From Methyloversatilis thermotolerans (GTDB lineage Bacteria > Pseudomonadota > Gammaproteobacteria > Burkholderiales > Rhodocyclaceae): a stretch of 64,000 nt of DNA. The DNA lies in assembly GCF_000372885.1 (NCBI RefSeq), contig NZ_KB889967.1:682001-746000 (forward strand). Direction: 5' to 3'. The notes below the pieces were generated by a model. That model was not told the DNA's origin, did not search any database, and saw nothing but the letters and a program-made list of their open reading frames with translations. This document shows, piece after piece, positions 7,245-34,878 of the stretch; position 1 is the stretch's first letter, and each line of letters begins with the position of its first letter. The position numbers and the translations under genes are program-made.

Positions 7245-7272
7245 AAATGGGGAAGCTCAGCTTCCCCATTTT
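7245..7272 (+). terminator. Hairpin between tRNA-Gly and tRNA-Cys
   Basis: AAATGGGGAAGCT and AGCTTCCCCATTT form a 13-base inverted repeat with a minimal loop, ending in TTTT. It looks like a rho-independent terminator or RNA-processing hairpin just after the first tRNA. Because two more tRNAs follow, it may act as a partial terminator or a 3'-end processing signal. Confidence 0.6.
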
Positions 7273-7303
7273 GCTTCACGGCCTGTTCTCCGGCCGTGCC
7301 TCT

Positions 7304-7377
7304 GGCGAGGTGGCAGAGTGGTCATGCAGCGGCCTGCAAAGCCGTGGACGCCGGTTCGATTCCGACCCTCGCCTCCA
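7304..7377 (+). tRNA. tRNA-Cys (GCA)
   Basis: The 74-base cloverleaf has acceptor GGCGAGG pairing with CCTCGCC, anticodon loop CTGCAAA (anticodon GCA), T loop TTCGATT and encoded CCA. It lies between the two tRNA-Gly copies. Confidence 0.96.
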
Positions 7378-7408
7378 AGACAATCCGGTCGATGCCAGGC
7401 ATCGATAC

Positions 7409-7484
7409 GCGGGAATAGCTCAGTTGGTAGAGCGCAACCTTGCCAAGGTTGAGGTCGCGAGTTCGAGCCTCGTTTCCCGCTCCA
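7409..7484 (+). tRNA. tRNA-Gly (GCC), second copy
   Basis: Identical over all 76 bases to the copy at 7161-7236, including the GCC anticodon and the encoded CCA. It ends 8 bases before a strong terminator that closes the cluster. Confidence 0.97.
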
Positions 7485-20936: not shown

Positions 20937-21848
20937 TCAGGGGGCTTCAGCGATCTGATCCTCGTCGGGCCTCGGTGCGGCGATCAGCGCCTCGAAGGCG
21001 AGGGCGGCCGGACCGAGCGGGCGCTCGGGCAGACGGATGCGGTAGAGCGTGCGCTGGATGGCCGCGCCACCCGGATGCAGCCGGCGCACGCGGCCGAGCG
21101 CGAGCTGATCGCGGGCGCAGATGCGCGGCACCAGGCCCAGTCCGCCGCCGGCTGCGACGCTCTGCACGATGGCTTCATTGCTGCCCACTTCCATGGTGCG
21201 GGCGGGGGTGAGCCCCAGTTCGTCGAGCACGCGGTCGGTGGCGGTGCGGCTGCCCGAGCCGCGCTCGCGCACGATCCAGGTGTGCTGCGCGAGGTCGGCC
21301 GGCCGGAAGCGGTCGTCCGACGACAGGTCGAGGTCGCGCGGCGCGACGATCACCATTTCCTCGCGCCGCCAGATTCTGCGCTGCAGCCGCGTGTCGTCGA
21401 CCTCGCCCTCGACCAGCGCCACGTCCACCCGGCAGTCGAGCAGCAGATCGGCGATCTGACGGGTGTTGCCGGCGACGACCTGAAGGTCGAGCCGCGGATG
21501 CCGGGCGTGGAAGTCGACCAGGAAGGGCGGCATCCAGTAAGTGGCGATGGTGGTGCTCGCGCCTATGGTGAGCCGGCCCCGGTCGAGCGAGCTGTAGGCG
21601 CGCAGCGTTTCCGTGGCTTCGCGTTCCAGCGCCAGGATGCTGCGCCCGTAGTCGTACAGCGCCTGGCCGGATTGGGTGGGGCGGAAGCTCTTGCCGCGCC
21701 GGTCCAGCAAAACCGTTTCGAGCTGTGCTTCCAGTTCCCTGACCGCCTTGGATACCGCGGGTTGCGTGATGTCCAGTGCCTCTGCCGCGCGGGAAAAGCT
21801 CTGTGCGTCCACCACTTTCACGAAGATGCGCAGCAAGTGCAGGTTCAT
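20937..21848 (-). CDS. LysR-family regulator (YeiE-like)
   Basis: The 303-residue protein has an N-terminal LysR winged helix (SFSRAAEALDITQPAVSKAVRELE, residues about 15-38, cited here as positions; key AVSKAVRELE) and a C-terminal effector domain (GRLTIGASTTIATYWMP, then a VGSNEAIVQSVAAGGGLGLVP segment). It is transcribed away from a YeiH-type transporter, the arrangement of yeiE-yeiH in enterobacteria, where YeiE has been linked to sulfite. It therefore probably controls that transporter and itself. A 15-base palindrome ends 3 bases before its start codon. Confidence 0.88.
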   Translation of the reverse strand: MNLHLLRIFVKVVDAQSFSRAAEALDITQPAVSKAVRELEAQLETVLLDRRGKSFRPTQSGQALYDYGRSILALEREATETLRAYSSLDRGRLTIGASTTIATYWMPPFLVDFHARHPRLDLQVVAGNTRQIADLLLDCRVDVALVEGEVDDTRLQRRIWRREEMVIVAPRDLDLSSDDRFRPADLAQHTWIVRERGSGSRTATDRVLDELGLTPARTMEVGSNEAIVQSVAAGGGLGLVPRICARDQLALGRVRRLHPGGAAIQRTLYRIRLPERPLGPAALAFEALIAAPRPDEDQIAEAP

Positions 21849-21850
21849 GT

Positions 21851-21865
21851 ATTACCCCAGGTAAT
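21851..21865. promoter_or_regulatory. LysR-type operator between the regulator and yeiH
   Basis: ATTACCCCAGGTAAT is a perfect 6+3+6 inverted repeat that satisfies the T-N11-A rule of LysR sites. It lies right before the regulator start codon. A second, weaker dyad (ATCA-N5-TGAT, 21864-21876) abuts it on the yeiH side, as expected for a recognition plus activation site pair. Confidence 0.6.
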
Positions 21866-21952
21866 CATCTGGTGATTTGCATGATATAGAAGAATGAATC
21901 GCTCGCCATCTAGGCTGCGCGCCATCGCTTCCCGATGTAATGCACACGCCCG

Positions 21953-22954
21953 ATGAGCTCTCTTCCCCTGATGCCCGGACGCCCAGTGGGCCTCGCCTCC
22001 GCGATCGGCATCGCTCTGCTGTCCGCTCTGCTTGCCCGCATGCCGGGCATGGAAAGCAGCGGTCTGGGCTGGCTCCCGCTGTCGGTCCTGGTGGGCATGG
22101 CGGCGGGCAATCTGTGGCCGGCTCTGTCCATGTACGGCGCACGCGGACTGCATCTGGCGCGGGGTCCGCTGATGCGTGCGGGCATCGCGCTGTTCGGGCT
22201 GCGCATCGGCTTCGCCGATCTCGGCGCCGCCGGCATTCACGGGGCGGTCGCGGTCGTGCTGATGGTGGCAAGCACCTTGCTGCTGGCGGACTGGCTAGGC
22301 CGGCTGCTTGGCGTGGAGCGGGATCTGCGCCTGCTGATCGGCTGCGGCAGCGCCATCTGCGGCGCTGCCGCAGTCGCCGCGGCCGATGGCGTGATCGGCG
22401 CGCGCGCCCGTCATGTGTCGGCCGCGGTGCTTGCCGTGGTGGTGTTCGGGTCCGCCTGCATGTTCCTGCTGCCCGCTCTGCAGCCCTTGTCGGGCATGGA
22501 CGCGCATCAGTTCGGCATGTGGGTGGGGTTGTCGGTGCACGAGCTGGGTCATGTGGTGGCCGCTGCGTCGGCGGGCGGCGGCGACGCGACTGCTGCGGCG
22601 CTGGTCGAGAAGATGGGGCGGGTCATGTTGCTGGCGCCGGTGCTCATGCTGCTGGCGCGCGGACTGCGCCGGACCTCGGCGCCGGAGGGTAGCGGCCGCA
22701 CGCCGGCATTCGCCTGCGTATTCGTGTTGATGATGTTGCTCAATGGCAGTGGCCTGCTGCCGCCTGCCGTGCAGCAGGCCGGCGTGATGGCGGCGCAATT
22801 GCTGCTCGCCATCGGTCTGGCCGCGCTCGGCATGCAGACGCGCTTGTCCGATATGGGCGGTGCGGGTGTGCGCGTGTGGCTTCTGGCGGGGGGGCTGTGC
22901 ATCCATCTCGTGGTGGGCGCTGCCATCCTGGTGCTGATCGGAGCGTGGTCGTGA
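21953..22954 (+). CDS. yeiH: YeiH/UPF0324 family putative sulfate/sulfite exporter
   Basis: The 333-residue protein is strongly hydrophobic with about ten membrane segments. The family signature GCGSAICGAAAVAA is present near residues 125-140, and VGLSVHELGHVVAA follows at about 185. UPF0324 proteins are annotated as putative sulfate exporters; direct transport evidence for the family is limited. The adjacent divergent LysR gene is its likely regulator. The neighbouring gene downstream encodes a second type of putative sulfite exporter, suggesting sulfite detoxification as a theme. Confidence 0.88.
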   Translation: MSSLPLMPGRPVGLASAIGIALLSALLARMPGMESSGLGWLPLSVLVGMAAGNLWPALSMYGARGLHLARGPLMRAGIALFGLRIGFADLGAAGIHGAVAVVLMVASTLLLADWLGRLLGVERDLRLLIGCGSAICGAAAVAAADGVIGARARHVSAAVLAVVVFGSACMFLLPALQPLSGMDAHQFGMWVGLSVHELGHVVAAASAGGGDATAAALVEKMGRVMLLAPVLMLLARGLRRTSAPEGSGRTPAFACVFVLMMLLNGSGLLPPAVQQAGVMAAQLLLAIGLAALGMQTRLSDMGGAGVRVWLLAGGLCIHLVVGAAILVLIGAWS

Positions 22955-23094: not shown

Positions 23095-23116
23095 CCAACC
23101 TGTCATGACAGGTTGG
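23095..23116. promoter_or_regulatory. Palindromic operator upstream of the TauE/SafE gene (GntR site 1)
   Basis: A perfect 22-base palindrome with core AACCTGTCATGACAGGTT (23097-23114) lies 39 bases before the exporter start. A copy with 2 mismatches in 18 lies directly upstream of the gntR gene, so the GntR protein is the likely binder. The first half lies within the 201-base gap after yeiH, which holds no other recognisable feature. Confidence 0.75.
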
Positions 23117-23155: not shown

Positions 23156-24022
23156 ATGGACATGTCTGTGCTCCAGGGCTGGTGGGGGGTACGCGACGCC
23201 ACCAGTTGGACGGTGATCGCGTCCGCGGTGCTGGCGGGCGGCGTCCTGCGAGGCATGACCGGATTCGGGGCGGCCTTGCTGATGGCACCGTTGCTCGCGC
23301 TGGTGGCCTCGGCGCGCGACACGCTGTGCCTGGTCACCTTGCTCAATGCCTTGCCACTGACGCACGCACTTGCGCCTGCCATGCGACGACAGGTGGATCA
23401 CCGGGTGCTCTTGCCCATGCTGGGCGCGGCCGCATGTGGCCTGCCATGTGGGCTGTGGGCGGTGCAGCGCGTGCCGGCAGGCCACTTCGGACTGCTGGTG
23501 GGCTTGTCGGTCCTGCTCAGCGCCGCGTTGATGGCGTCCGGCTGGCGTCCGCGATGGACCCCTGGACCGGCGGGGGCTGCGCTGGCCGGACTGGCCAGCG
23601 GCCTGCTGACCGGTTTCGGTGGCGTGGGCGGGCCGCCCGCCATTCTTTATCTGCTGGCCATCGATACCGATGCGCGCCGGCTGCGTGCCAGCTTCCTCGT
23701 CTACTTCGGCTGCCTGTATCCGATGGCGCTGGCCTGCATTGCGCTGGGCGGGGTGCTCGACCGCGCGCTGCTGCTGCAATCGCTGCTGCTGGCGCCGCTG
23801 TTCCATGCGGGCGGTCTGCTGGGCGAGCGGGTGTACCGGGTGCTCGATCCGCGCTACTTCCGCCGCGTGGTGCTCGCGCTGCTCATGATCATCGGTCTGC
23901 TTGCATCGTGGCCACGACAGGCGGCCGATATGGTGCATCGCACAGCGGCGGTGCAGGAAAACCCGGCGAATCGTTCGGGCGAATCCCCGGTAATTCGACA
24001 TGTAATTGTTTTGAATCAATGA
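23156..24022 (+). CDS. TauE/SafE family sulfite exporter
   Basis: The 288-residue membrane protein has about eight hydrophobic segments in two repeats (RGMTGFGAALLMAPLLAL, and GFGGVGGPPAILYLLA), the family hallmark. TauE/SafE proteins export sulfite or sulfoacetate-type anions released during organosulfonate breakdown. ATG 23156 is supported by GAAGGG at 23146-23151; a second ATG at 23162 is also possible. An upstream open frame back to 22967 contains the operator and is not coding. It is followed after 90 bases by gntR, and the whole downstream cluster runs in the same direction. Confidence 0.86.
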   Translation: MDMSVLQGWWGVRDATSWTVIASAVLAGGVLRGMTGFGAALLMAPLLALVASARDTLCLVTLLNALPLTHALAPAMRRQVDHRVLLPMLGAAACGLPCGLWAVQRVPAGHFGLLVGLSVLLSAALMASGWRPRWTPGPAGAALAGLASGLLTGFGGVGGPPAILYLLAIDTDARRLRASFLVYFGCLYPMALACIALGGVLDRALLLQSLLLAPLFHAGGLLGERVYRVLDPRYFRRVVLALLMIIGLLASWPRQAADMVHRTAAVQENPANRSGESPVIRHVIVLNQ

Positions 24023-24053
24023 GCTGAACACGATTTTGTGCACGGCGAAAAAG

Positions 24054-24070
24054 TGGCACCGAGTTTGCAT
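24054..24070 (+). promoter_or_regulatory. Sigma-54 (-24/-12) promoter of the gntR operon
   Basis: TGGCACCGAGTTTGCAT matches the RpoN consensus TGGCAC-N5-TTGC: the GG and GC doublets are exactly 10 bases apart. The predicted transcription start is near 24080, about 33 bases before the gntR ATG and inside the GntR operator. The flank at 24001-24035 is unusually AT-rich for this genome and could hold bending or activator sites, but no enhancer-binding protein gene is in the window. Confidence 0.72.
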
Positions 24071-24075
24071 GACAT

Positions 24076-24093
24076 AACCCGTCATAACAGGTT
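24076..24093. promoter_or_regulatory. GntR operator overlapping the sigma-54 start site (GntR site 2)
   Basis: AACCCGTCATAACAGGTT differs from the site 1 core AACCTGTCATGACAGGTT at 2 of 18 positions. It covers the predicted start of the RpoN promoter and ends 19 bases before the gntR ATG. Bound protein would block transcription directly, so autorepression is the simplest reading. Confidence 0.75.
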
Positions 24094-24112
24094 CTTCGAC
24101 AGGAGCTCCAGC

Positions 24113-24895
24113 ATGGCACCGCAACAGACGCCGGAACCGGATTCCGTACCGGACGCGTTAGGCAAGGATCTTTCGGCGGTATCGCAGATGCCGCTGTATA
24201 CGCAGATCCGGGAAATCCTGCGCCGTCGCATTCTCGACGGCAGCTATCCCCCTCATACCCAGATGCCGTCGGAAAGCCAGATGATGTCGGCATTCAAGGT
24301 GAGCCGCATCACGATACGCCAGGCTCTGGGCGACCTGCAGAAGGAGGGGCTCATCTTCAAGGTGATGGGCAAGGGCAGTTTCGTCGCCAAGCCCAAGGCC
24401 TTCCAGAGTCTGTCCAGGCTGCAGGGTTTCGGCGAGGCCATGTCCTCGTCCGGCTACGAAACCTATTCATTGCTGCTCAGCGCGAAGCCGGTGGCTGTGA
24501 CGCCGCTGGTGGCGCAGCGCCTGCATCTGAAGAAGCACGATGACATGGTGTTCGAGATCCAGCGTCTGCGCTACCTGAACCGGGAGCCGATCTCGGTCGA
24601 CGTGAGCTACTTCCCGCTCGACATCGGTGAGCGGCTCACCCAGGAGGACCTGGCCACGCGCGACATCTTCGTCATTCTCGAAAACGACTTCGGTCACAAC
24701 CTGACGCATGCCGATGTGCAGATCGAGGCGATCTCCGCCGACGACTCGCTGGCGCGGCATCTGGACATCGCCGAGGCCTCGCCCTTGCTGCGCATCGAGC
24801 GGCTCACCTGGGCCGGCGAACGGCCCATCGATTTCGAATTCCTCTACTACCGCGGCGATGCCTTCCAGTACCGGCTACGGATCGACCGGAGTTGA
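24113..24895 (+). CDS. GntR-family regulator, HutC/UTRA subfamily
   Basis: The 260-residue protein has an N-terminal GntR winged helix (residues about 28-90: MPLYTQIREILRRRILDGSY, then MPSESQMM and SRITIRQALGDLQKEG) and a C-terminal UTRA ligand-binding domain (about 105-255, e.g. VFEIQRLRYLNREPISVDVS, FEFLYYRGDAFQYR). UTRA regulators are usually repressors released by a small ligand of the pathway they control. AGGAG at 24101-24105 fixes ATG 24113. Its gene sits between the exporter and the redox/transport genes, and its presumed operator occurs before both transcription units. Confidence 0.92.
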   Translation: MAPQQTPEPDSVPDALGKDLSAVSQMPLYTQIREILRRRILDGSYPPHTQMPSESQMMSAFKVSRITIRQALGDLQKEGLIFKVMGKGSFVAKPKAFQSLSRLQGFGEAMSSSGYETYSLLLSAKPVAVTPLVAQRLHLKKHDDMVFEIQRLRYLNREPISVDVSYFPLDIGERLTQEDLATRDIFVILENDFGHNLTHADVQIEAISADDSLARHLDIAEASPLLRIERLTWAGERPIDFEFLYYRGDAFQYRLRIDRS

Positions 24896-24989
24896 GGCGG
24901 GCAGTGATGCCTGGAAATTGCATCGCAGGAATTCTTCGTTCGCAGGCGGGCGCTGACGCGCCAGAGTGCGACACCCTACAGGAGAGAAC

Positions 24990-26720
24990 ATGAAACGCAT
25001 CGATCTGGAATTCGACCTCGTGGTCATCGGCGGTGGTACCGGCGGCCCGATGGCCGCGGTCAAGGCCAAGGAAAAGAACCCCAAGCTGCGCGTGCTGCTG
25101 ATCGACAAGGCCAACGTGAAGCGCTCGGGCGCGATATCGATGGGCATGGACGGATTGAACAACGCCGTCATACCCGGTCACGCGACACCGGAGCAGTATG
25201 TCAAGGAAATCACCATCGCCAACGACGGCATCGTCGATCAGGAAGCGGTGATGGCCTATGCCGCCAACAGCTTCGACATGATCAACGAACTGGATCGCTG
25301 GGGCGTCAAGTTCGAGAAGGACGAAACCGGCGATTACGCGGTGCGCAAGGTGCATCACCTGGGCAGCTATGTGCTGCCCATGCCTGAAGGTCACCACATG
25401 AAGAAAATCCTCTACCGCCAATTGAAGAAGGCGCGCGTGGAGGTGACCAACCGCGTCGTCGTCACCCGCGTGCTGACCGGCGCCAACGGCGAAGTGGCCG
25501 CGGTGATGGGCTTCGACTGCCGCACCGCCGACATCTATGTCATCCGTACCAGGGCGGCGGTGATCAGCACCGGCGCGGCCGGCCGCATCGGCCTGCCGGC
25601 CTCCGGTTATCTGATGGGCACCTACGAGAACCCGACCAACTGTGGCGACGGACATGCGATGGCCTATCACGCCGGCGCTTCACTGGCCAATCTCGAGTGC
25701 TTCCAGATCAACCCGCTGATCAAGGACTACAACGGTCCGGCCTGTGCCTATGTGACCGGTCCTTTCGGTGGCTTCACCGCGAACTCCAAGGGCGAGCGCT
25801 TCATCGAGTGTGATTACTGGAGCGGCCAGATGATGATGGAGTTCCACAACGAACTCGAGGGCGGCAACGGTCCGGTGTTCCTGAAGCTCGATCACCTGGC
25901 GGAGGAAACCATCCAGGAGATCGAAACCATCCTGCATACCAACGAGCGTCCGAGCCGCGGCCGCTTCCACGAGAAGCGCGGCAACGACTACCGCTCGCAG
26001 ATGGTGGAAATGCACATTTCGGAAATCGGGTTCTGCAGCGGCCACAGCGCATCCGGCATTCACATCAACGCGCGCGGCGAAACCTCGGTGCCCGGCCTGT
26101 ATGCCGCCGGCGACTGTGCCAGCGTGCCGCACAACTACATGCTGGGTGCCTTCGTCTATGGCCGTATATGCGGCGAGAACGCCGCCGAGTACTGCGCCGA
26201 GCGGCCGCTGGTCGACTACGACGCGGGCGCCGCAGCGGCCGAGGAGGCGCGCATCCTGGCCCCGCTGGGACGCACCGACGGACTGACCCCGTTCCAGATC
26301 GAGTACAAGACGCGCCGGCTGGTGAATGACTACCTGCAACCGCCCAAGATCACGCGCAAGTACGAGATCGCGCTGCGCCGTTTCGACGAAATCCGTGAGG
26401 ACACGGCCTGCATGATGGCCGGCAATCCGCATGAGCTGATGCGTGCGATGGAAGCGCACTCCATCATCGACTGCGCCGAAATGGCCGCCCGCGCCTCGTT
26501 GTTCCGCACCGAAAGCCGATGGGGCCTCTACCACTACTACGTCGATCATCCCGAGCGCGACGACGACAACTGGTTCTGCCACACCTTGCTCAGCAAGGGC
26601 GCCGACGGCCGGATGACGCTGGCGAAGAAGGCGATCGAACCCTATGTGGTGCCCATCGACGAGGAAGAGCGCACCGCCTATCAGCGCCTGCGCGTTGCCC
26701 GCAGCGCCGAGGCCGCCTGA
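24990..26720 (+). CDS. AprA/FrdA-like FAD-dependent oxidoreductase subunit
   Basis: The 576-residue flavoprotein belongs to the succinate dehydrogenase/fumarate reductase/adenylylsulfate reductase superfamily. The dinucleotide-binding segment is at the N-terminus (LVVIGGGTGGPMAAVKAKE), followed by VKRSGAISMGMDGLNN, which resembles AprA more than FrdA, and the second FAD motif GLYAAGDCASVPHNYMLGAF near residue 370. There is no signal peptide, so it is cytoplasmic. Partner ferredoxin starts 71 bases downstream. No cytochrome b or anchor subunit is nearby, so it is not a respiratory fumarate reductase. Proteins of this type are widespread beside sulfonate-type ABC transporters; the reaction is, to my knowledge, not established. 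AGGAG supports ATG 24990. Confidence 0.8.
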   Translation: MKRIDLEFDLVVIGGGTGGPMAAVKAKEKNPKLRVLLIDKANVKRSGAISMGMDGLNNAVIPGHATPEQYVKEITIANDGIVDQEAVMAYAANSFDMINELDRWGVKFEKDETGDYAVRKVHHLGSYVLPMPEGHHMKKILYRQLKKARVEVTNRVVVTRVLTGANGEVAAVMGFDCRTADIYVIRTRAAVISTGAAGRIGLPASGYLMGTYENPTNCGDGHAMAYHAGASLANLECFQINPLIKDYNGPACAYVTGPFGGFTANSKGERFIECDYWSGQMMMEFHNELEGGNGPVFLKLDHLAEETIQEIETILHTNERPSRGRFHEKRGNDYRSQMVEMHISEIGFCSGHSASGIHINARGETSVPGLYAAGDCASVPHNYMLGAFVYGRICGENAAEYCAERPLVDYDAGAAAAEEARILAPLGRTDGLTPFQIEYKTRRLVNDYLQPPKITRKYEIALRRFDEIREDTACMMAGNPHELMRAMEAHSIIDCAEMAARASLFRTESRWGLYHYYVDHPERDDDNWFCHTLLSKGADGRMTLAKKAIEPYVVPIDEEERTAYQRLRVARSAEAA

Positions 26721-26791
26721 TTTTCACGACGGCGCTGATCCGCTCCGTTTCCACGACCCGACTCAAGACTCGATTCCACAAGGAGTACGCC

Positions 26792-27025
26792 ATGACCCTA
26801 GCAGCTACGCCGACCCAGGTGCCGGTGCAGGTCGACAACGACAAGTGCATTGCCGAGAAGGGCTGCACCGTGTGCGTGGACGTCTGTCCGCTCGACGTGC
26901 TCGCCATCGACATGCTCACCCGCAAGGCCTTCATGAAGTTCGATGAGTGCTGGTACTGCCTGCCCTGTGAGACCGACTGCCCGACCGGTGCGGTCAGCGT
27001 GTCCATCCCCTACCTGCTGCGCTGA
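26792..27025 (+). CDS. Two-cluster [4Fe-4S] ferredoxin, AprB-like partner
   Basis: The 77-residue protein carries two cysteine sets: CIAEKGCTVCVDVCP and CWYCLPCETDCP, enough for two [4Fe-4S] clusters. The layout resembles the cluster domain of AprB without its C-terminal tail. It lies immediately after the AprA-like flavoprotein and presumably passes electrons to or from its FAD. AAGGAG at 26780-26785 fixes ATG 26792; the longer frame upstream overlaps the flavoprotein and is not used. Confidence 0.88.
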   Translation: MTLAATPTQVPVQVDNDKCIAEKGCTVCVDVCPLDVLAIDMLTRKAFMKFDECWYCLPCETDCPTGAVSVSIPYLLR

Positions 27026-27035
27026 AGGGACCATC

Positions 27036-27983
27036 ATGGAACTGCAGACATTGTCGATTGCCGATCGACTGGCCAGCCCGGATGCCGAGGTGCGCCGCCT
27101 GGCCGTGATCGATCTGCCCTACAGCGATGAGGACGACATCGTTCCGTTGCTGCTGCCGCGGCTGCAGGACAGCGACGCCACGGTGCGGACCGAAGCCGTG
27201 CGTGCACTCGAGGGCTACGAGGACGCCGAGGTGGTCGAAGCGCTCGCCCCCATGCTGCTCGACCCGGATGCCGAGGTGAGGACGGCCGTTGGACTGGTGC
27301 TGTCAGAACTGAAGGAAAGCGCCTCCGCCGCACCGCTCATTCCTTTCCTGAGCGGTCACAGCGCCGAGGTGCGCATGCTGGCGTTGCGCGCGGTGCGCGC
27401 GCTGCGCGTCGATGCCGCATTCGCGCCGGCCATGGATGCGCTCAAGGACGCCGATGCCGGCGTGCGCCGCGAAGCGGTCGGCGTGCTTGGCTACCTGCGC
27501 CGAGCGGAGGCGATCGGTGCGCTGGCCGAGATCGCGGCGCGCGATCCGGATCACGAGGTGCGGCGCATCGCCATCGGTGCCATCGGCTACTCCAGCGAAG
27601 TGAGTGTGCTGCCGGCGCTGACGCGGGCGCTGAGCGATGTGTCCTGGATGGTGCGCGACGAAGCGGCACAGACCCTGGGCAAGTTGCGCCTGGGCCTGGC
27701 CATCCCCGAACTGATGCGCGCTATGCAGGACGACTATTGGCAGGTGCGTGTGAAAGCGGCACGCAGCCTCGGGCTGCTGAAAGCGACCGCAGCGCTGCCG
27801 TCGCTGATGGAGGCGCTCGCACATCCGATAGGCAATCTGCGCAAGGAGGCCGCGATCGCGCTCGGCGAAATCGCCGACCCGCGTGCCATCCCTGCGCTGG
27901 AAAAGGCGCTCGACGACGCCGACCCGGATGTGCGCAAGCTGTCCCGTCTCGCGCTGACCGCCATTTCCCTCGCCCAGAAATAG
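27036..27983 (+). CDS. HEAT-repeat protein (PBS-lyase-type repeats)
   Basis: The 315-residue protein is built of about nine helical repeats of around 31 residues, with recurrent D-x-x-V-R-x-x-A spacing (SDATVRTEAVRALEG, PDAEVRTAVGLVL, DAGVRREAVGVLGYL, HEVRRIAIGAIGY, DPDVRKLSRLALTAIS). Such repeats form protein-binding solenoids. There is no signal peptide. It begins 10 bases after the ferredoxin and ends 9 before the second ferredoxin, so a role as scaffold or maturation factor for the Fe-S/flavin complex is likely. No catalytic residues are visible. Confidence 0.88.
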   Translation: MELQTLSIADRLASPDAEVRRLAVIDLPYSDEDDIVPLLLPRLQDSDATVRTEAVRALEGYEDAEVVEALAPMLLDPDAEVRTAVGLVLSELKESASAAPLIPFLSGHSAEVRMLALRAVRALRVDAAFAPAMDALKDADAGVRREAVGVLGYLRRAEAIGALAEIAARDPDHEVRRIAIGAIGYSSEVSVLPALTRALSDVSWMVRDEAAQTLGKLRLGLAIPELMRAMQDDYWQVRVKAARSLGLLKATAALPSLMEALAHPIGNLRKEAAIALGEIADPRAIPALEKALDDADPDVRKLSRLALTAISLAQK

Positions 27984-27992
27984 GAGACCGCC

Positions 27993-28328
27993 ATGACCTT
28001 CGTCGTGACCGAAGCCTGTGTGCGCTGCAAATACACCGACTGCGTGGATGTGTGTCCGGTGGAGTGCTTCCACGAAGGGCCGGAATTTCTGGTGATCAAT
28101 CCGGCCGGCTGCATCGACTGCGGCGTGTGCGTGCCGGAGTGTCCGGCCGAAGCCATCTATGCCGAGGACGATCTGCCGGAGGACCAGCGCGCCTTCATCG
28201 ACATCAACGCACAACTGGCGCGGCAGTGGCCGGTCATTTCGGCGTCTCGCGATCCGCTGGAGGAGGCGGATCGCTGGGTAGCCGTCAAGGACAAGCGCCA
28301 GTACCTCGACATAGCCGAGAAGGTCTGA
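27993..28328 (+). CDS. fdxA: Seven-iron ferredoxin (FdxA type)
   Basis: The 111-residue protein matches Fdx[24 protein letters not shown] gives the [3Fe-4S] part (positions 9-21; key residues C9, C17, C21) and [12 protein letters not shown] the [4Fe-4S] part, followed by the usual tail of about 55 residues ending near [11 protein letters not shown]. It is a soluble low-potential electron carrier. Its placement here suggests that it feeds the AprA-like flavoprotein. Confidence 0.92.
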
Positions 28329-28397
28329 GCACAGACCCGCACACCGATTTCATCCGTTGCGCAATTTCATCGATCTGACAGGAAGAAGGGGATAGCC

Positions 28398-29843
28398 ATG
28401 AATGGACTGATGTACGGCTCGAAGCGACTGCAGCGCACACTGCGTTCCATGCTGTTTGCCGGCTCGCTGCTGGCCTGTGCCGGAACGGCGCTGGCGGAAG
28501 TGGTGACGGTGGGCATAGGCACCCAGAACACCACCACGAATACCGTCACCGGCGGCATCGTGGTCAAGGAACTCGGGCTGATCGAGAAGCACCTGCCCAA
28601 GACCGGCAAGTACAAGGACATCCAGTTCAGGATCGAGTGGCAGAACTTCACCTCCGGCCCTCCGGTCACCAACGGCATGGTGGCCAACACGCTGCAGATC
28701 GGCATGATGGGCGACTATCCCTTGCTGGTGAATGGCGCCACCTTCCAGGCCAGCCCGGACACGAGGAGCCGTCTCATCGCGCTGATCGCCTACAACGCGG
28801 ATGGTGCCGGCAACGGCATCGTGGTGCACAAGGATTCGCCCTACTACCAGTTGTCCGATCTCAAGGGCAAGAAGGTGTCCGTGCCTTTCGGTTCTGCCGC
28901 GCACGGCATGCTGCTCAAGGCGATGGAGGACAAGGGCTGGAAGAGCGACTTCTGGGAGCTGTCCAGCCAGAGCCCGGAGGTCGGCACGTCGAGCCTGCAG
29001 GAAAAGCGCATCGACGGTCACGCCGATTTCGTTCCGTTCGCTGAACTGCTGCCCTACCGGGGCTTCGCGCGCAAGATTTTCGATGGCGTCGAAACCAAGG
29101 TGCCCACCTTCCACGGCGTGGTGGTGCGCGAGGACTTTGCGAAGAAGTATCCGGAATTCGTCGTCGCCTACATCAAGGCGCTGATGGAGGCCAACGAGTG
29201 GGTGCGCAAGAACCCGGTCGAGGCCGCCACGAAGATCGAGGAGTGGACGCGGGTGGAAAAGGAAGTTGCCTACATGTTCCTCGGCCCGGGCGGCGTGCAT
29301 ACGCTGGATCCGACCATCAAGCCGAAGTGGGTCGACACCGTGAAGTATGACCACGGCGTGCTTCAGCGCATGGGCCGCGTGAAGGACTTCGATGCCGATG
29401 CCTGGGTCGACGAAACCTATGTCAAGCAGGCGTTCAAGGAACTGGGCCTGGATTACGACAAGCAGAAGGCGAGCTTTGCCAGCTACGAAATCACCGGCAC
29501 CGATCCGCTGTGCGGCGGCGCGATAGACAAGCCGCGTGAGGCGGGCGAGGTGTGGCTGGAGGGCGGCAGCATTGCCGCCTACAAGTCGGCCGAATGCACG
29601 CTGGCTGCGGTCAATGCGGCGACCAAGGCAGGCAAGAAGATCGGCGTGGCTTTCGTGTTCGACCAGGCGTTCAAGATCAAGCTGTTTGCCGACAAGGCCT
29701 TCTATTCCATCGTGAGCAAGGGCGGTGCGAGCAGCATCACGCCTTTCCTGCTGAAGAAGGATGCCGAAGCCCATGCCGCCGCCAATGGCGGAAAACTGGG
29801 CAGCTACGCCGATGCACTGGCGGTCGCCACGGTAAGGAAATAA
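28398..29843 (+). CDS. ABC substrate-binding protein (sulfonate/nitrate/taurine type) with NosL-like C-terminal domain
   Basis: The 481-residue protein has a signal peptide (LRSMLFAGSLLACAGTALA). Residues about 28-370 form an SsuA/NrtA-type binding domain (VTVGIGTQNTTTNT, LQIGMMGDYPLLV, VPFGSAAHGMLLKAM). Typical family members end near 320-350 residues. The extra 110 residues here (from CGGAIDKP to the end) contain FADKAFYSIVSKGG, FLLKKDAEAHAAANGG and KLGSYADAL, a pattern that resembles the copper-protein chaperone NosL. The substrate cannot be read from sequence. It starts the transporter part of the operon, 4 bases before the permease gene. Confidence 0.82.
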   Translation: MNGLMYGSKRLQRTLRSMLFAGSLLACAGTALAEVVTVGIGTQNTTTNTVTGGIVVKELGLIEKHLPKTGKYKDIQFRIEWQNFTSGPPVTNGMVANTLQIGMMGDYPLLVNGATFQASPDTRSRLIALIAYNADGAGNGIVVHKDSPYYQLSDLKGKKVSVPFGSAAHGMLLKAMEDKGWKSDFWELSSQSPEVGTSSLQEKRIDGHADFVPFAELLPYRGFARKIFDGVETKVPTFHGVVVREDFAKKYPEFVVAYIKALMEANEWVRKNPVEAATKIEEWTRVEKEVAYMFLGPGGVHTLDPTIKPKWVDTVKYDHGVLQRMGRVKDFDADAWVDETYVKQAFKELGLDYDKQKASFASYEITGTDPLCGGAIDKPREAGEVWLEGGSIAAYKSAECTLAAVNAATKAGKKIGVAFVFDQAFKIKLFADKAFYSIVSKGGASSITPFLLKKDAEAHAAANGGKLGSYADALAVATVRK

Positions 29844-29846
29844 GTC

Positions 29847-30833
29847 ATGGCCAATGCGATGAGGATTGCCGCGCTGGACGAGACGGCCCCGCCGTCCGGC
29901 GAGGTCGATACGCCACCCGCCGCGGCGCCGGTGGCAACGACCCTGGCGGCCGGCGGGGCCACGCACGCGCCGGTCGTGCCGGTGATGCCGAGACCGTCAG
30001 GCATGACGCAACCCGCCGGCGCAACGACAGCCGCCCGCTGGGGTGCCGCGCTACGGCGCGGTTTGCCCGGCCTGTTGCTGGGTGCGCTTTCGATCGGCCT
30101 GCTGATCGGCTTCTGGCATCTGGCGACCACTCATCGCTGGGTGTTCTACATCCGCTTCACGAATGTGCCAGGGCCGGTCGAGGTGTTTACCGAGGCGGTG
30201 CACCTGTTCGGTGATCGCGGCTTCGGTTCGCACATCCTGCTCAGCCTGAGACGCATCCTGCTCGGCTTCGCGGTGGCGACCGTGCTGGGTGTGACGCTGG
30301 GGCTCGTGATAGGCCGCTACAAGGCGATGCGCAGCCTGCTGTTCCCCGCGATGGAAGTGCTGCGTCCGATACCGGCCATCGCCTGGGTGCCCATCTCCAT
30401 CATGCTGTGGCCGACCACCGAAACCAGCATCGTGTTCATCACCTTCATCGGCGCCTTCTTTCCCATCCTGCTGAACACGGTGCACGGGGTGCAGAGCATG
30501 GACGCGGTATTGGTGCGGGCCGCCCGTTGCCTGGGTGCGAGCGAATTCGCGCTGATGACCCAGGTGGTACTGCGCGGCGCCATGCCGCACATTTTCACCG
30601 GTCTGGCGGTGGGCATGGGTGTGGCGTGGGTGTCGTTGATCGCCGCGGAAATGATTTCCGGTCAATACGGCGTCGGCTACTTCACCTGGGAAGCCTATTC
30701 GCTGATCGAGTACGCGAACATCGTCGTCGGCATGGTGGTGATCGGGGTGCTCGGTCTGGCATGCAGCGGTGCGATACGGCTGCTTGGCCGCGTGCTGATG
30801 CCCTGGCAGTCCGGTCACGGCAAGGAGAACTGA
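29847..30833 (+). CDS. ABC transporter permease (SsuC/TauC/NrtB type)
   Basis: The 328-residue protein has about six membrane segments from residue 70 onwards and the cytoplasmic coupling motif ARCLGASEFALMTQVVLRGAMPHIFTG (EAA loop near residues 228-255). The first 70 residues are an unusual Pro/Ala/Thr-rich hydrophilic tail that most SsuC proteins lack. It is flanked by the binding protein (3-base gap) and the ATPase (1-base gap), giving a complete importer. Confidence 0.93.
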   Translation: MANAMRIAALDETAPPSGEVDTPPAAAPVATTLAAGGATHAPVVPVMPRPSGMTQPAGATTAARWGAALRRGLPGLLLGALSIGLLIGFWHLATTHRWVFYIRFTNVPGPVEVFTEAVHLFGDRGFGSHILLSLRRILLGFAVATVLGVTLGLVIGRYKAMRSLLFPAMEVLRPIPAIAWVPISIMLWPTTETSIVFITFIGAFFPILLNTVHGVQSMDAVLVRAARCLGASEFALMTQVVLRGAMPHIFTGLAVGMGVAWVSLIAAEMISGQYGVGYFTWEAYSLIEYANIVVGMVVIGVLGLACSGAIRLLGRVLMPWQSGHGKEN

Positions 30834-30834
30834 T

Positions 30835-31704
30835 ATGACGACCCCTCCAGCAACGGCAGCCGGACACATCGACATCCGCGATGTGAGCGTGCGTTTCGTG
30901 CAGAACGGCCGGCCCTTCGACGCCGTCAGCAGCGTGTCACTCGACGTGAAACCCGGGGAATTCGTGTCCATCGTCGGACCGTCGGGCTGCGGCAAGTCCA
31001 CGCTGCTCAACATCGTCGCCGGGTTCCTGCGCGCCGACGCGGGCCGCGTGACGGTCGATGGCCAGGGCATCAGCGGGCCGGGCGCGGATCGTGGCGTGGT
31101 GTTCCAGCAGTACTCGCTGTTTCCCTGGCTCACCGTGCGGCAGAACGTGGAATTCGGACTGAAGATGAAAGGGGTGGGGCGCATGTTGCGAGAGGCGCGC
31201 GCGCGCACCTTGCTCGGCCTGGCCGGCCTGCTGTCTTTCGAGAACCACTATCCGGATCAGTTGTCCGGCGGCATGAAACAGCGGGTCGGCATCGTGCGGG
31301 CGCTGGCGACCAGTCCGCAGGTGATGCTGATGGATGAGCCCTTCGGCGCGCTCGATGCGCAGACGCGGGTGGTGATGCAGGAAATCCTGACCAATATGTG
31401 GCAGCAGCTCAAACTGTCGGTGCTGTTCATCACGCACGATATCGAGGAAGCCATCTTCCTGTCCGACAAGGTGTATGTCATGACCGCTCGGCCCGGCCGC
31501 ATCAAGGCGGAAATTCCGATACCGCTGCCGCGTCCGCGCACACCCGACATGCTGTCTTCACCCGCCTTCCTGTCGCTGCACCGACAGTTGCGCGCGCTGA
31601 TACGCGAGGAGAGTCTGGCTGCCATGGGTGGCGAGCTGAAGGAGGGCGGGCTGGCCGGTCACGACTGGCATATGGGCGAGCAGAGCGTCGGGGCGGTGCT
31701 GTGA
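30835..31704 (+). CDS. ABC transporter ATP-binding protein (SsuB/TauB/NrtD type)
   Basis: The 289-residue ATPase has Walker A GPSGCGKST (about residue 51), Q-loop FQQYSLFPW, signature LSGGMKQRV, Walker B VMLMDEPFGALD and switch His in FITHDIEEA. It completes the importer with the upstream permease and binding protein. The C-terminal extension of about 40 residues is typical of the SsuB/NrtD group. Its stop overlaps the start of the DUF971 gene (GTGA). Confidence 0.95.
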   Translation: MTTPPATAAGHIDIRDVSVRFVQNGRPFDAVSSVSLDVKPGEFVSIVGPSGCGKSTLLNIVAGFLRADAGRVTVDGQGISGPGADRGVVFQQYSLFPWLTVRQNVEFGLKMKGVGRMLREARARTLLGLAGLLSFENHYPDQLSGGMKQRVGIVRALATSPQVMLMDEPFGALDAQTRVVMQEILTNMWQQLKLSVLFITHDIEEAIFLSDKVYVMTARPGRIKAEIPIPLPRPRTPDMLSSPAFLSLHRQLRALIREESLAAMGGELKEGGLAGHDWHMGEQSVGAVL

Positions 31705-32024
31705 GCGCGCTGCCGGTCAGGTTGGTGCTGCATGCTGAATCGCGCCTGCTCGAGATCGAATGGTCGGACGGACTGAACCGTGCGTTGCCGCATGGCCTGC
31801 TGCGCGCGCGCTGCCGTTGTGCCCAGTGCGAGAGGGGGCGGCGCGACGGCCAGCCGCCTGCCGAAATCGCGTCGGTAGGTGTGCAGGCGGTGAAGCCGCT
31901 GGCCGATCACGGGCTCAACTTCGTGTTCTCGGATGGCCACGAACGCGGCATCTACCCATGGCCCTATCTGCGCGAACTGTGTCAGTCGGAGCAGGCGGCG
32001 CGAATGGCTGGAACCGGGGTCTGA
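31701..32024 (+). CDS. DUF971 domain protein
   Basis: The 107-residue protein is a stand-alone copy of the DUF971 domain also found at the N-terminus of gamma-butyrobetaine hydroxylase and fused to Mrp/ApbC Fe-S carriers. Visible features are LEIEWSDGLNRALPHGLLRA, a cysteine cluster CRCAQC and WPYLRELC. GTG 31701 overlaps the ATPase stop, so it belongs to the operon as its last gene. The link to Fe-S carriers elsewhere makes a cluster-maturation role for the two ferredoxins reasonable, but this is inference. Confidence 0.85.
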   Translation: MSALPVRLVLHAESRLLEIEWSDGLNRALPHGLLRARCRCAQCERGRRDGQPPAEIASVGVQAVKPLADHGLNFVFSDGHERGIYPWPYLRELCQSEQAARMAGTGV

Positions 32025-32116: not shown

Positions 32117-32458
32117 TCAGTGCACCGGCGGCGGAGGTGGCGTATCGCCGTCCTCCATCAGCAGCGCGCACAGCGCGCGACCTTCTGTCGTCAATTCGAC
32201 CTGTCCGCTGCCGTCCTCGGTGAGCATGACGCCCACCAGTCCGGCATCTTCCAGCGCAGTGAGCTGGCGACGCAGTGTGCTCTGGCGAGCGCCCACACGC
32301 TTCGCCAGCCGTGCGAGCGACATGTCGCGGCTGTCGGCCAGATCTTCGTGCAATGCACGCAGTATGGCGACCGTCAGCGGATCGACACCGTCGTTGTCGC
32401 TGCCGGCATCCGGTTCGACATCATCGTCGAACAGGTCTTCGTCGTTACGCGGCGACAC
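32117..32458 (-). CDS. Small winged-helix protein, MarR/ArsR-like
   Basis: The 113-residue product has an acidic N-terminal tail (DEDLFDDDVEPDAGSDND), then a winged helix (SLARLAKRVGARQSTLRRQL, wing about VELTTEGRALCALL) and a proline-rich end (TPPPPPVH). It starts with GTG and overlaps the end of the molybdopterin oxidoreductase gene by 14 bases, so it is translated with it. A regulator or accessory role for that enzyme is plausible; I do not recognise a named family. Confidence 0.75.
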   Translation of the reverse strand: MSPRNDEDLFDDDVEPDAGSDNDGVDPLTVAILRALHEDLADSRDMSLARLAKRVGARQSTLRRQLTALEDAGLVGVMLTEDGSGQVELTTEGRALCALLMEDGDTPPPPPVH

Positions 32459-34745
32459 GCGAAGGCTCCATCAGGACCGGAATCGACTTCGAGGTCGGTG
32501 TGCGCGCCTTGTCGGCGAAGCTGTGCAGCGGTACCAGCGGATTGGTTTCCGGGTAATAGCCGCTGATGCAGCCGTCCGGAATGTCGTACTCGACCAGCTT
32601 GAAGCCGTCGGCACGACGCTCGATGCCGTCGTCCCACACGCTGACCAGATCCACCCACTGGCCCGGCGCGAAGCCGAGGCGGTCCATGTCGGCACGGTTC
32701 ATGAACAGCACGCGACGCTGACCGAACACGCCGCGATAGCGGTCGTCCATGCCATAGACCGTGGTGTTGTACTGGTCATGCGAGCGCGTGGTCATCAGCG
32801 TGAGCACGCGATCGCCGAAGCGCTTGCGCGCCTGGTGTATCGGCGTGTCCTTCGGGATGGCGTGCACCTTGAATTCCGCACGGCCGCTGGGCGTGAGCCA
32901 GACACGGTTGCGCGAGGCCACACCCAGGTGGAAACCACCCGGACGCACGACGCGCGCGTTGAAATCCTTGAACTGCGGGTACACCTTTTCGATCGCATCG
33001 CGGATGCGCGCATAGTCTTCCGCGTACCACATCCAGTCTATGCCGGCGTCCGGCAGGGTGGCCTGCGCCAGCCGGGCGACGATTTCGATCTCGGTCAGGC
33101 ATTCCGGCGAGGCCGGCTTGTTGATGCCGTAGGAAATATGGACCATGCTCATCGAGTCCTCGACCGTCACACCCTGCGGTCCGAGCGCGGTGGCGTGGAT
33201 TTCGGTGCGCCCCATGGTGGGCAGGATGAGTGCATCGCGGCCATGAACCAGATGGCTGCGGTTGAGCTTGGTCGTGATGTGCACGGTCAGGTTGCATGCG
33301 CGCATCGCGGCGAACACGCGATCGGTATCCGGCGACGCCATAACGAAGTTGCCGCCGAGGCCGATGAACACCTTCACCTTGTCGTCCAGCATGGCCTGTA
33401 TCGTCGCCACGACGTCGTAGCCATGGTGGCGCGGCGGTTTGAAGCCGAACACCTTTTCCAGGCGATCGAGGAAGGCCGGGGTGGGGCGTTCATCGATGCC
33501 CACGGTGCGGTCGCCCTGCACGTTCGAGTGACCGCGAACCGGGCACAGTCCGGCGCCGCGCCGGCCGATATTGCCGCGCATGAGCATCAGGTTGGTGAGC
33601 ATCTGCAGCGTGGCCACGGCATGCTTGTGCTGGGTCAGGCCCATGCCCCAGGTTGCGATCACGGCCTTGCCGCGTGCGTAGATGCCGGCCAGTCGGTCGA
33701 TCTCCTCGTACGGCACGCCGGATTCCTCGACGATTTCACTCCAGTCCGACGCACGCAGATCGGCCGCGAAGTCGTCGAAGTGGGCACAGTGCTCGGCGAT
33801 GAATTCGACGTCGATCACGCGCTCGCCGCCCGCATCGATCACCGCGTCGTCCATTTCAAGCACGCGCTTGGCAACCCCCTTGATCAGCGCGAGATCGCCG
33901 CTGAGCTTGGGACGGATGAACACCGAACTGATCTGCACGCCCTTGGGCGACAGCATGTCCAGCATGTGCTGCGGACTCGCGAACCGTTCCAGCCCGCGTT
34001 CGCGCAGCGGATTCACCGCGACGATGGTGGCGCCGCGCTTGGCGCATTCGCGCAGCTCGCCCAGCATGCGCGGATGGTTGGTCGCCGGGTTCTGGCCGAA
34101 CAGAATGAGCGTGTCGCAGTGGTCGAAGTCGTCCAGCGTCACCGTGCCCTTGCCGACACCGACCGTTTCCGGCAGGCCTATGCTGGTCGGCTCGTGGCAC
34201 ATGTTCGAACAGTCGGGGAAGTTGTTGGTGCCGTAGCGACGCACGAACAACTGGTACATGAAAGCCGCTTCATTGCTGGCTCGGCCCGAGGTGTAGAAGG
34301 CCGCCTGATCAGGGTCGGGCAGGGCATTCAAATGGTCAGCCATGAGCTTGAAGGCTTCGTCCCAGCTCACCTGAACATAGCGGTCGGTGGCCGCGTCGTA
34401 GCGCATCGGATGGGTCAGCCGGCCATGCGCTTCCAGTTCGTAGTCGGACTGCTGCAGCAGTTCGGTCACCGTGTGACGGGCGAAGAAATCCGGGGTGACG
34501 CGCTTGGCGGTCGATTCGGCCGCAACCGCCTTGACGCCGTTCTCGCAGAACTCGAAGGTGGAGGTGTGCTCGCGGTCGGGCCAGGCACAGCCGGGACAAT
34601 CGAAGCCATCGGGCTGGTTCTGCGACAGCAGGGTGAGTGCGCCGCGGCCGGGAATCTTTTCCTTCAGCAAATGGATGGCGACGTTCTTCAGCGCACCCCA
34701 GCCACCGGCCGGCGCGTTGTACTCCTTGATCCCTGAATCCGACAT
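32445..34745 (-). CDS. FdhF/YdeP-family molybdopterin oxidoreductase
   Basis: The 766-residue protein matches the YdeP/FdhF-alpha-like branch of the DMSO reductase superfamily: N-terminal CPGCAWPD with CENGVKA, molybdopterin-binding stretches (YTSGRASNEAAF, ILFGQNPATNHP, GMGLTQHKH) and the C-terminal dinucleotide domain (LMTTRSHDQYNTTVYG). There is no Tat signal, so it is cytoplasmic. The physiological substrate of YdeP-like enzymes is not settled; formate is a family-based guess only. ATG 34745 has GGAG 5 bases upstream and is preferred over 34769. The upstream LysR gene probably regulates it. Confidence 0.9.
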   Translation of the reverse strand: MSDSGIKEYNAPAGGWGALKNVAIHLLKEKIPGRGALTLLSQNQPDGFDCPGCAWPDREHTSTFEFCENGVKAVAAESTAKRVTPDFFARHTVTELLQQSDYELEAHGRLTHPMRYDAATDRYVQVSWDEAFKLMADHLNALPDPDQAAFYTSGRASNEAAFMYQLFVRRYGTNNFPDCSNMCHEPTSIGLPETVGVGKGTVTLDDFDHCDTLILFGQNPATNHPRMLGELRECAKRGATIVAVNPLRERGLERFASPQHMLDMLSPKGVQISSVFIRPKLSGDLALIKGVAKRVLEMDDAVIDAGGERVIDVEFIAEHCAHFDDFAADLRASDWSEIVEESGVPYEEIDRLAGIYARGKAVIATWGMGLTQHKHAVATLQMLTNLMLMRGNIGRRGAGLCPVRGHSNVQGDRTVGIDERPTPAFLDRLEKVFGFKPPRHHGYDVVATIQAMLDDKVKVFIGLGGNFVMASPDTDRVFAAMRACNLTVHITTKLNRSHLVHGRDALILPTMGRTEIHATALGPQGVTVEDSMSMVHISYGINKPASPECLTEIEIVARLAQATLPDAGIDWMWYAEDYARIRDAIEKVYPQFKDFNARVVRPGGFHLGVASRNRVWLTPSGRAEFKVHAIPKDTPIHQARKRFGDRVLTLMTTRSHDQYNTTVYGMDDRYRGVFGQRRVLFMNRADMDRLGFAPGQWVDLVSVWDDGIERRADGFKLVEYDIPDGCISGYYPETNPLVPLHSFADKARTPTSKSIPVLMEPSRVAA

Positions 34746-34878
34746 GAGCGCTCCGCAATGATTCGTCACGGGCGCTTGATGCCGGTCAATGTGGTTTCAA
34801 CCGGCCTGTGCCCATGCACTGTTGCGGTGGATGCTGCAAGGGCTTGACAGACCCGTCCAATCGTTTGTCCGGATTCTT

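Follow-up and report, generated by a model that had tools for sequence, protein, structure and literature searches.

A conserved gene cluster around a PRK08275-family flavoprotein

A cluster of ten genes was analyzed in a window of 64,000 nucleotides from Methyloversatilis thermotolerans (assembly GCF_000372885.1, contig NZ_KB889967.1, positions 682,001 to 746,000 of the forward strand; genome of 4.16 Mb). The cluster lies on the + strand at 23156-32024 and encodes a TauE exporter, a GntR regulator, a PRK08275-family flavoprotein, a 2x[4Fe-4S] ferredoxin, a HEAT-repeat protein, the ferredoxin FdxA, the binding protein, permease and ATPase of an ATP-binding cassette (ABC) importer, and a DUF971 protein. 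We conclude that this unit is real, widely shared among bacteria and functionally uncharacterised. From its context, a sulfur role of the unit is likely, and from homology we have moderate confidence in a reductive direction of its chemistry. As a whole explanation, a GntR-controlled sulfur-scavenging unit with reductive flavin/Fe-S chemistry seems to us evenly balanced between right and wrong.

All ten genes named in a first-pass annotation, made from the sequence alone, were found on one strand with matching family models. The mostly tight spacing that it described was confirmed. The gaps are 90 nt between TauE and GntR, 94 nt between GntR (read from ATG 24113) and the flavoprotein, and 71 nt between the flavoprotein and the ferredoxin. 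From the ferredoxin onward they are 10, 9, 69, 3, and 1 nt, followed by a 4-nt overlap.

Conserved synteny, which had been proposed as a check, was examined in related loci. Named genome contigs were scanned with an alignment of 16 sequences, which gave at least 584 loci, and the best 80 of these were analyzed. The gene content of each locus was scored by tblastn. The flavoprotein, the ferredoxin, and the HEAT protein were present in 80/80 loci, GntR in 78/80, and DUF971 in 68/80. The binding protein was detected in 59/80, the permease in 58/80, and the ATPase in 57/80, with all three importer genes in 57/80 loci. FdxA was found in 27/80, ferredoxin-NADP reductase in 19/80, YeiH in 16/80, and TauE in 4/80. 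Three other window genes served as controls and gave 0/80 (FdhF-like), 0/80 (winged-helix), and 1/80 (PurL). Since the flavoprotein, ferredoxin, HEAT, and GntR genes occur in 78-80 of the 80 loci and the controls in 0, 0, and 1, the gene arrangement is far beyond chance. As the loci were selected by the flavoprotein, the sample leans to close kin; 13 of the 80 are shorter than 21 kb. What stands of the claim that the ten genes are one unit is the series GntR-flavoprotein-ferredoxin-HEAT-(DUF971). FdxA and TauE were found in part of the lineages only.

Three layouts were observed. In the window type, HEAT and FdxA stand ahead of the importer, and in the Pseudomonas/Paraburkholderia type the importer is placed between the ferredoxin and HEAT. 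The third layout has no importer. Two copies of the flavoprotein, with 93% and 74% identity to that of the window, are encoded in one genome of the genus (G003), and a metagenome-assembled genome of Methyloversatilis discipulorum (L091) has the Pseudomonas-type layout. These two cases suggest an exchange of cluster types.

The flavoprotein was matched in 15 of 61 genomes (60 relatives and the host's own), 10 of them in its own genus and one at just 32% identity. Across the phylum, 21 of 398 genomes (own included) scored above the curated family cut-off, compared with 0/14 control genomes. Plasmid copies were present in 51 records, with hosts including rhizobia, Methylobacterium, Acidithiobacillus, Acinetobacter, cyanobacteria, and actinobacteria. 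In the open-licence literature, to which the search was limited, no description of this cluster was found. The text examined from PMC2996968, PMC13352529, PMC7661421, PMC11941057, and PMC4070957 contains nothing on this flavoprotein.

Residue replacements in the flavoprotein family

The flavoprotein scored 1060.8 bits against the PRK08275 model (NF006131), whose curated cut-off is 587. The PRK08275 and PRK13800 models carry only the generic name fumarate reductase/succinate dehydrogenase. In a search with the family profile, the best solved relative was the alpha subunit of the 3'-phosphoadenosine 5'-phosphosulfate (PAPS) reductase from Methanothermococcus thermolithotrophicus (8a8o; E 3.9e-76, profile positions 2-562 of 572). 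The second was AprA of A. fulgidus, a subunit of adenosine 5'-phosphosulfate (APS) reductase (E 1.4e-56), and SdhA came next. The window protein is 28% identical to 8a8o and about 26% identical to AprA; its identity with the SdhA-like protein of the genome is 26%.

We take Trp234, Arg265, and His398 (A. fulgidus numbering) to be active-site residues of AprA, with the Arg binding sulfate. These positions were compared between 23 family sequences, including cyanobacterial and actinobacterial ones, and six comparison sequences (five AprA and 8a8o). Trp, Arg, and His are all present in 6/6 comparison sequences, whereas in 23/23 family sequences Trp234 is replaced by Tyr212 and Arg265 by Leu243; His398 is kept as His352 in 23/23. 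The assignment of positions 234 and 265 agrees with counting in the profile alignment. Furthermore, Cys237, Cys252, Cys349, and Cys495 are Cys in 23/23 family sequences and in 0/6 comparison sequences. In the methanogen PAPS reductase, the catalytic residues known from APS reductase are retained, and the differences lie in Lys120, Arg121, and Ser122 (PMC10322725). This loop is not conserved in the displayed family members, in which GKRSI of 8a8o aligns to a GSYVL-type sequence. In a tree, AprA and PAPS reductase were separated from the family with full support; in view of a long-branch warning, only that split was used. The AlphaFold model of the flavoprotein was poor (predicted local distance difference test, pLDDT, 56.4) and was not used.

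Three known identities were tested and rejected. For dissimilatory APS reductase, the scores were 160.5 bits against a cut-off of 641.75 (TIGR02061) and, for AprB, 36.2 against 135.65 (TIGR02060), and the Trp and Arg are replaced. The same replacements and the PAPS loop speak against a methanogen-type PAPS reductase. For fumarate reductase/succinate dehydrogenase, the scores were 169.9 against 567.3 (TIGR01812), 136.6 against 932.7 (TIGR01176), and 126.1 against 727.35 bits (TIGR01816). Thus, judged by these sequence tests, the flavoprotein belongs neither to the APS/PAPS reductases nor to the ordinary fumarate reductases. The second point had been anticipated, and the ten genes include no membrane subunits. 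The description as AprA-like holds for the nearest solved kin and fails at two of the three AprA residues tested. The family appears to combine the APS/PAPS reductase scaffold and its cofactor partners with a remodelled pocket, and it may work like an APS/PAPS reductase. The genome encodes two other, distant flavoproteins of 595 and 548 amino acids (26% and 21% identity), which we read from their sequence as probable SdhA and NadB.

Probable electron-transfer and Fe-S partners

The 77-residue ferredoxin matched AprB chains with E 2.8e-9 and 3.3e-6; a 394-residue multi-cluster ferredoxin (9sfi_O) scored higher (2.2e-10). The window ferredoxin has a CWxC motif in an AprB-like cluster domain and is without the C-terminal tail of AprB. 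In the actinobacterium Tsukamurella, the flavoprotein and HEAT are one protein of 893 amino acids. PRK13800 of NCBIfam, the HEAT-fused sister of PRK08275, matches the flavoprotein with its N-terminal part and the HEAT protein with its C-terminal part. Since the two are fused in Tsukamurella and joined in PRK13800, they probably act together. The HEAT gene of Mesorhizobium sp. AR07 (L139:13945-14902) is annotated as two overlapping frames and may be broken.

All 19 loci with ferredoxin-NADP reductase are among the 27 with FdxA, and this restriction suggests an electron path. FdxA and ferredoxin-NADP reductase also stand in the same array on a Methylobacterium plasmid. In Acidithiobacillus caldus (L121:10574-14035), a 1153-residue FAD/NAD(P) protein, in which only Pyr_redox_2 was recognised, follows FdxA at the place where the window has the importer.

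In the slot of DUF971, four cyanobacterial copies have an Mrp/NBP35-type ATPase. Three of the four were checked with Pfam and contain a MIP18-type Fe-S assembly domain and a NUBPL iron-transfer NTPase. Because such a protein occupies the slot in these plasmid copies, DUF971 probably serves Fe-S loading, and the Fe-S maturation that had been proposed for the unit gains support.

A predicted palindromic operator precedes GntR

The palindrome CYYGTYATRACRRG was found at 65 sites in the 80 loci (1.63 Mb), against 0.39 expected. GntR is preceded by 51 of the sites and the flavoprotein, at close range, by 10. The remaining 4 precede TauE and account for all four TauE-bearing loci; none is elsewhere. 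A slightly longer form has exactly two sites in the window, before TauE and before GntR, with 0.03 expected by shuffling. These counts are partly circular, since the 80 loci themselves were the source of the pattern, which was then relaxed so as to include the sites of the window. The 23 plasmid loci lie outside the derivation of the pattern. In five of their seven GntR-type copies, a site with no more than one mismatch lies directly before GntR or the flavoprotein and no further site occurs; the A. caldus and Tsukamurella copies have none. In the 16 plasmid loci without an annotated GntR, one stray one-mismatch site was detected in one locus.

Since the second window site lies between GTG 24038 and ATG 24113, the ATG is preferred as the GntR start. 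As the operator precedes both TauE and GntR, TauE is probably under GntR control in this genome. The proposed sulfite exporter is accordingly tied to the unit here by a shared operator; with 4/80 loci, it is no general part. The window scan revealed no GntR operator at YeiH. Oxygen sensing through Crp/Fnr regulators was also considered and rejected: 12 such regulators (11 alphaproteobacterial, 1 cyanobacterial) are without the N-terminal cysteine motif that is characteristic of FNR.

The binding protein and its C-terminal domain

The structures of TauA and SsuA are the best solved matches of the binding protein, within residues 76-283 only. Its C-terminal 147 residues matched NosL (PF05573) with E 0.0013 and 19.5 bits, below the gathering score of 24. 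At E of 0.1 or less, a NosL match was obtained in 15 of 16 aligned binding proteins, the best at 9.3e-7 (Pfam). The AlphaFold model of the domain has a pLDDT of 84.5, and its six best Foldseek matches in the PDB are NosL, followed by MerB2. Judged from this model, the binding protein carries a predicted NosL-fold domain at its C-terminus. The fusion with a sulfonate-type binding protein was seen in all 16 proteins aligned.

Three cyanobacterial loci (L122, 7388-9424; L127; L140) contain a divergent LysR gene for a protein of about 670 amino acids. That of L122, the only one scanned, has a C-terminal NMT1 domain like that of a binding protein, as if sensing the ligand of the importer.

Sulfur genes in the neighbourhood and in the host genome

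Of the 23 annotated plasmid copies, 11 have sulfur-acquisition genes in their flanks (Table 1), whereas none of six control stretches does. The flanks are 8-12 kb and unequal in length, the controls are only six stretches of the same plasmids at hand-picked places, and the positives include near-copies (two Sinorhizobium, two Pseudanabaena). An Acinetobacter baumannii copy with a TSUP transporter about 7 kb off (L120) was excluded from the count. In one control stretch (L174), nifS, a further gene of Fe-S assembly, and an LLM oxidoreductase are present and were not scored as sulfur acquisition.

The annotation had noted that SsuD, TauD, and Xsc were missing. A search of the host genome at E 1e-5 found neither SsuD nor TauD, and the sole match to the Xsc model is below its cut-off; one luciferase-like monooxygenase is encoded. 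PAPS_reduct domains, a family to which CysH and CysD belong, are encoded at four places. Next to one of these, a gene at 3.985 Mb encodes a protein with sulfite-reductase domains, and sulfite could therefore be assimilated by the host.

Comparison with known systems

The view that sulfonate pathways are known only as SsuD, TauD, or Xsc overlooks asfRABC, with its reductase, ferredoxin, and importer (PMC4267179). By analogy, this system for aromatic sulfonates is the closest known relative in logic. In Pseudomonas putida S-313 it consists of a reductase, a ferredoxin, a binding protein, an ABC importer, and a LysR regulator, and asfA transposon mutants are unable to use aromatic sulfonates (PMC4267179). 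The window unit shares the reductase, ferredoxin, binding protein, and ABC importer, and asfRABC serves sulfur acquisition. The host genera also overlap (Variovorax, Polaromonas, Hydrogenophaga, Cupriavidus, Acidovorax, and Pseudomonas; PMC9694294). In contrast, the regulator is LysR there and GntR/UTRA with its operator here, where the LysR gene adjoins YeiH and not the core. HEAT, DUF971, FdxA, and a NosL-fused binding protein, all present in the window unit, are not mentioned in the available parts of these papers.

According to PMC2864759, asfRAB lies on CHR2 of Cupriavidus metallidurans. CHR2 has no relative of the window flavoprotein above 27% identity (best 27% and 26%), and orthology with AsfA of this strain was rejected; this result depends on the published placement, the exact AsfA gene not being located. 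A CHR2 pair at 793-796 kb, considered as asfAB, was identified as TcuAB (200 kb of the 2.58-Mb replicon were looked at). At 928 kb (L167:7881-9862), a 549-residue flavoprotein and a 111-residue 2x[4Fe-4S] ferredoxin are encoded beside a sulfonate-type importer. This pair may be the asfAB of the literature. The LysR of the window had no match in the 20-kb CHR2 stretch around it. On this evidence, in which asf is known from citing papers, the window unit would be a parallel system of similar logic and not asf itself. If it were orthologous, the unit would extend the description of asf, and the findings on residues, HEAT, NosL, and the operator would stand.

Among the other systems, the PAPS reductase 8a8o likewise pairs an alpha subunit binding flavin adenine dinucleotide (FAD) with a 2x[4Fe-4S] beta subunit and matches the flavoprotein over nearly its full length. 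It differs at the Trp, the Arg, and the PAPS loop, and no HEAT partner is mentioned in the available part of PMC10322725. AprAB shares the flavoprotein family, a ferredoxin partner with a CWxC-type motif, and the conserved His; the window proteins differ in falling far below the model cut-offs and in the replaced Trp and Arg. The importer and the N-terminal domain of the binding protein resemble TauABC/SsuABC, whereas the binding protein is below the SsuA cut-off and the region matching the TauA and SsuA structures does not extend into its NosL-like domain. With NosL itself, the unit would share the predicted fold of this domain.

Proposed function and alternatives

In the scavenging model, the periplasmic binding protein of the sulfonate class, with its NosL-fold domain, would hand a small anion containing sulfur over to the ABC importer. 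The PRK08275 flavoprotein, the AprB-like ferredoxin, and the HEAT protein would form a soluble cytoplasmic complex, which would reduce or cleave the substrate at the flavin. Electrons would arrive through FdxA, joined by ferredoxin-NADP reductase in 19 of the 27 FdxA-bearing relatives, and DUF971 would aid the loading of Fe-S clusters. Sulfite, for which we have moderate confidence, would be the most likely sulfur product; it would be assimilated by the sulfite-reductase-domain protein of the genome, and TauE would export the excess. Our guess is that the substrate belongs to the sulfonate or S-sulfonate class.

Several observations weigh against this model. Since TauE is present in only 4/80 loci, sulfite need not be the general product, and on an Aquabacterium plasmid TauE is annotated upstream of GntR with no operator of its own. 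Among the 67 loci of at least 21 kb, 18 are without all three importer genes. The binding protein scored 116.7 bits against the SsuA model TIGR01728, below the cut-off of 163.5. The single Cys of the NosL-like domain is kept in the window-type binding proteins and missing in the aligned Pseudomonas-type ones. Because the Arg is Leu in 23/23 family sequences, an APS-type sulfonyl transfer to the flavin may not occur. Finally, 12 of the 23 plasmid copies have no counted sulfur neighbour, and a chromate exporter gene (chrA) adjoins one A. baumannii copy, which would also fit another oxyanion.

According to PMC4267179, organic compounds hold more than 95% of the sulfur in soil, and sulfonates make up a major share of this fraction. 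The route described there for releasing sulfonate sulfur uses monooxygenases, which require oxygen. A more specific form of the model is a new oxygen-independent class of desulfonation or S-X cleavage in aerobic bacteria. It would use the APS-reductase scaffold, with the sulfate-binding Arg lost and cysteines gained at aligned active-site positions, and a NosL-fused sulfonate-type importer. It would be spread over Proteobacteria, cyanobacteria, actinobacteria, and the plasmids of nodule bacteria under the generic database name of fumarate reductase. We regard this proposal as tentative and rather less likely than not.

An unlikely but serious alternative is that the flavoprotein and ferredoxin supply electrons to an oxygenase encoded elsewhere, so that desulfonation would be oxygenolytic, as proposed for AsfA/AsfB. 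The shared architecture with asfRABC (PMC4267179), the SsuD or TauD/TfdA genes near some copies, and the luciferase-like monooxygenase of the host are in line with such a supply, but SsuD and a TauD-family protein were not found in the host genome at the threshold above. Moreover, PAPS and APS reductases, to which the flavoprotein is closest among solved structures, act as catalysts themselves, and the family-invariant residues at aligned catalytic positions suggest a substrate pocket rather than a mere carrier.

Similarly improbable in our judgement, the substrate may be other than a C-sulfonate, such as thiosulfate, an S-sulfonate (S-sulfocysteine), thiocyanate, or an oxyanion such as chromate. 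Reductive cleavage of S-S or S-O bonds is chemically easier than that of C-S bonds, and the replacement of Arg by Leu argues for a differently charged group. The chrA neighbour and the 3-mercaptopropionate dioxygenase and rhodanese genes after one copy also agree with this alternative. Against it, the binding protein is most like sulfonate/taurine-binding proteins and sulfonate-type genes stand beside several copies.

A metal-handling system, in which the NosL-fold domain would bind copper or another metal and the unit would reduce or repair metal-sulfur species, is a quite remote candidate. The Foldseek matches to NosL and MerB2 and the four invariant cysteines of the flavoprotein would suit it, but no recognised metal transport gene lies in the conserved block and the adjacent genes are more often suggestive of sulfur. 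Since the Cys of the domain is lost in the Pseudomonas-type copies, copper is unlikely to play a general part, and this idea was abandoned. The least credible reading is that of an ordinary subunit of respiratory fumarate reductase or of succinate dehydrogenase among unrelated neighbours, for which the database family name and the shared FAD_binding_2 and Succ_DH_flav_C domains speak, and against which stand the scores far under the SdhA/FrdA cut-offs, the two other flavoproteins of the genome, the lack of membrane subunits among the ten genes, and the conserved ferredoxin and HEAT partners.

If the scavenging model is correct, a widespread unit with APS-reductase-like chemistry on sulfonate-like compounds would be a new step of the sulfur cycle. 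A function would also be assigned to a family that currently bears the name fumarate reductase and is represented at 584 or more related loci, with copies on nodule-bacterial plasmids among them. Both the predicted operator and the replaced residues render the model directly testable.

Features of the window and its surroundings

The positions of the features are collected in Table 1. Upstream of the cluster, a YeiH gene and a divergent LysR gene (20937-22954), absent from the first-pass annotation, were found; the LysR gene is probably not part of the core. In the 16 related loci with YeiH, the gene is upstream or downstream of the cluster.

Table 1. Features in the window and sulfur-acquisition genes flanking plasmid copies of the cluster
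Feature	Position	Strand	Remarks
LysR regulator	20937..21848	-	divergent from YeiH; LysR of at least 50% identity in 6/80 loci
YeiH family (PF03601), putative sulfate exporter family	21953..22954	+	relative of at least 25% identity in 16/80 loci
GntR-type operator ACCTGTCATGACAGGT	23098..23113		43 bp upstream of TauE
TauE/SafE family exporter (TSUP)	23156..24022	+	PF01925 91.9 bits, cut-off 32.6
GntR-type operator ACCCGTCATAACAGGT	24077..24092		21 bp upstream of GntR start ATG 24113
GntR/HutC-type regulator (GntR + UTRA)	24113..24895	+	start ATG 24113 rather than GTG 24038
FAD flavoprotein, PRK08275 family, 576 aa	24990..26720	+	FAD_binding_2/Succ_DH_flav_C
2x[4Fe-4S] ferredoxin, 77 aa	26792..27025	+	Fer4 dicluster; AprB-like cluster domain
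HEAT-repeat protein, 315 aa	27036..27983	+	matches C-terminal part of PRK13800 model
FdxA-type ferredoxin	27993..28328	+	NF045490 (equivalog model) 158.9 bits, cut-off 135
Periplasmic binding protein (NMT1-type)	28398..29843	+	SsuA/TauA-type N-terminal domain; predicted NosL-fold C-terminal domain (~29400-29840)
ABC importer permease, NitT/TauT type	29847..30833	+	BPD_transp_1
ABC importer ATPase, NitT/TauT type	30835..31704	+	ABC_tran
DUF971 protein	31701..32024	+	PF06155
TauE with YeiH			flank of Leptolyngbya and two Pseudanabaena plasmid copies
TauE			flank of Aquabacterium plasmid copy
metX-metY			flank of Nostoc plasmid copy
Sulfate and sulfonate ABC systems with TauD/TfdA			two Sinorhizobium plasmid copies; one also ssuD
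tauA and ssuD			flank of Mesorhizobium plasmid copy
SsuA-type binding protein and NtaA/DmoA			flank of Cupriavidus plasmid copy
3-mercaptopropionate dioxygenase and rhodanese			flank of Paraburkholderia plasmid copy
MsnO8 with SsuA-type binding protein			flank of S. fredii plasmid copy

Downstream, on the minus strand and convergent with the cluster, the gene of a small winged-helix protein overlaps that of a molybdopterin oxidoreductase (32117-34769), which appears formate-dehydrogenase-like from its sequence; the pair was near the cluster in 0/80 relatives. A tRNA-Gly, tRNA-Cys, tRNA-Gly array was also observed at 7161-7484 of the window.

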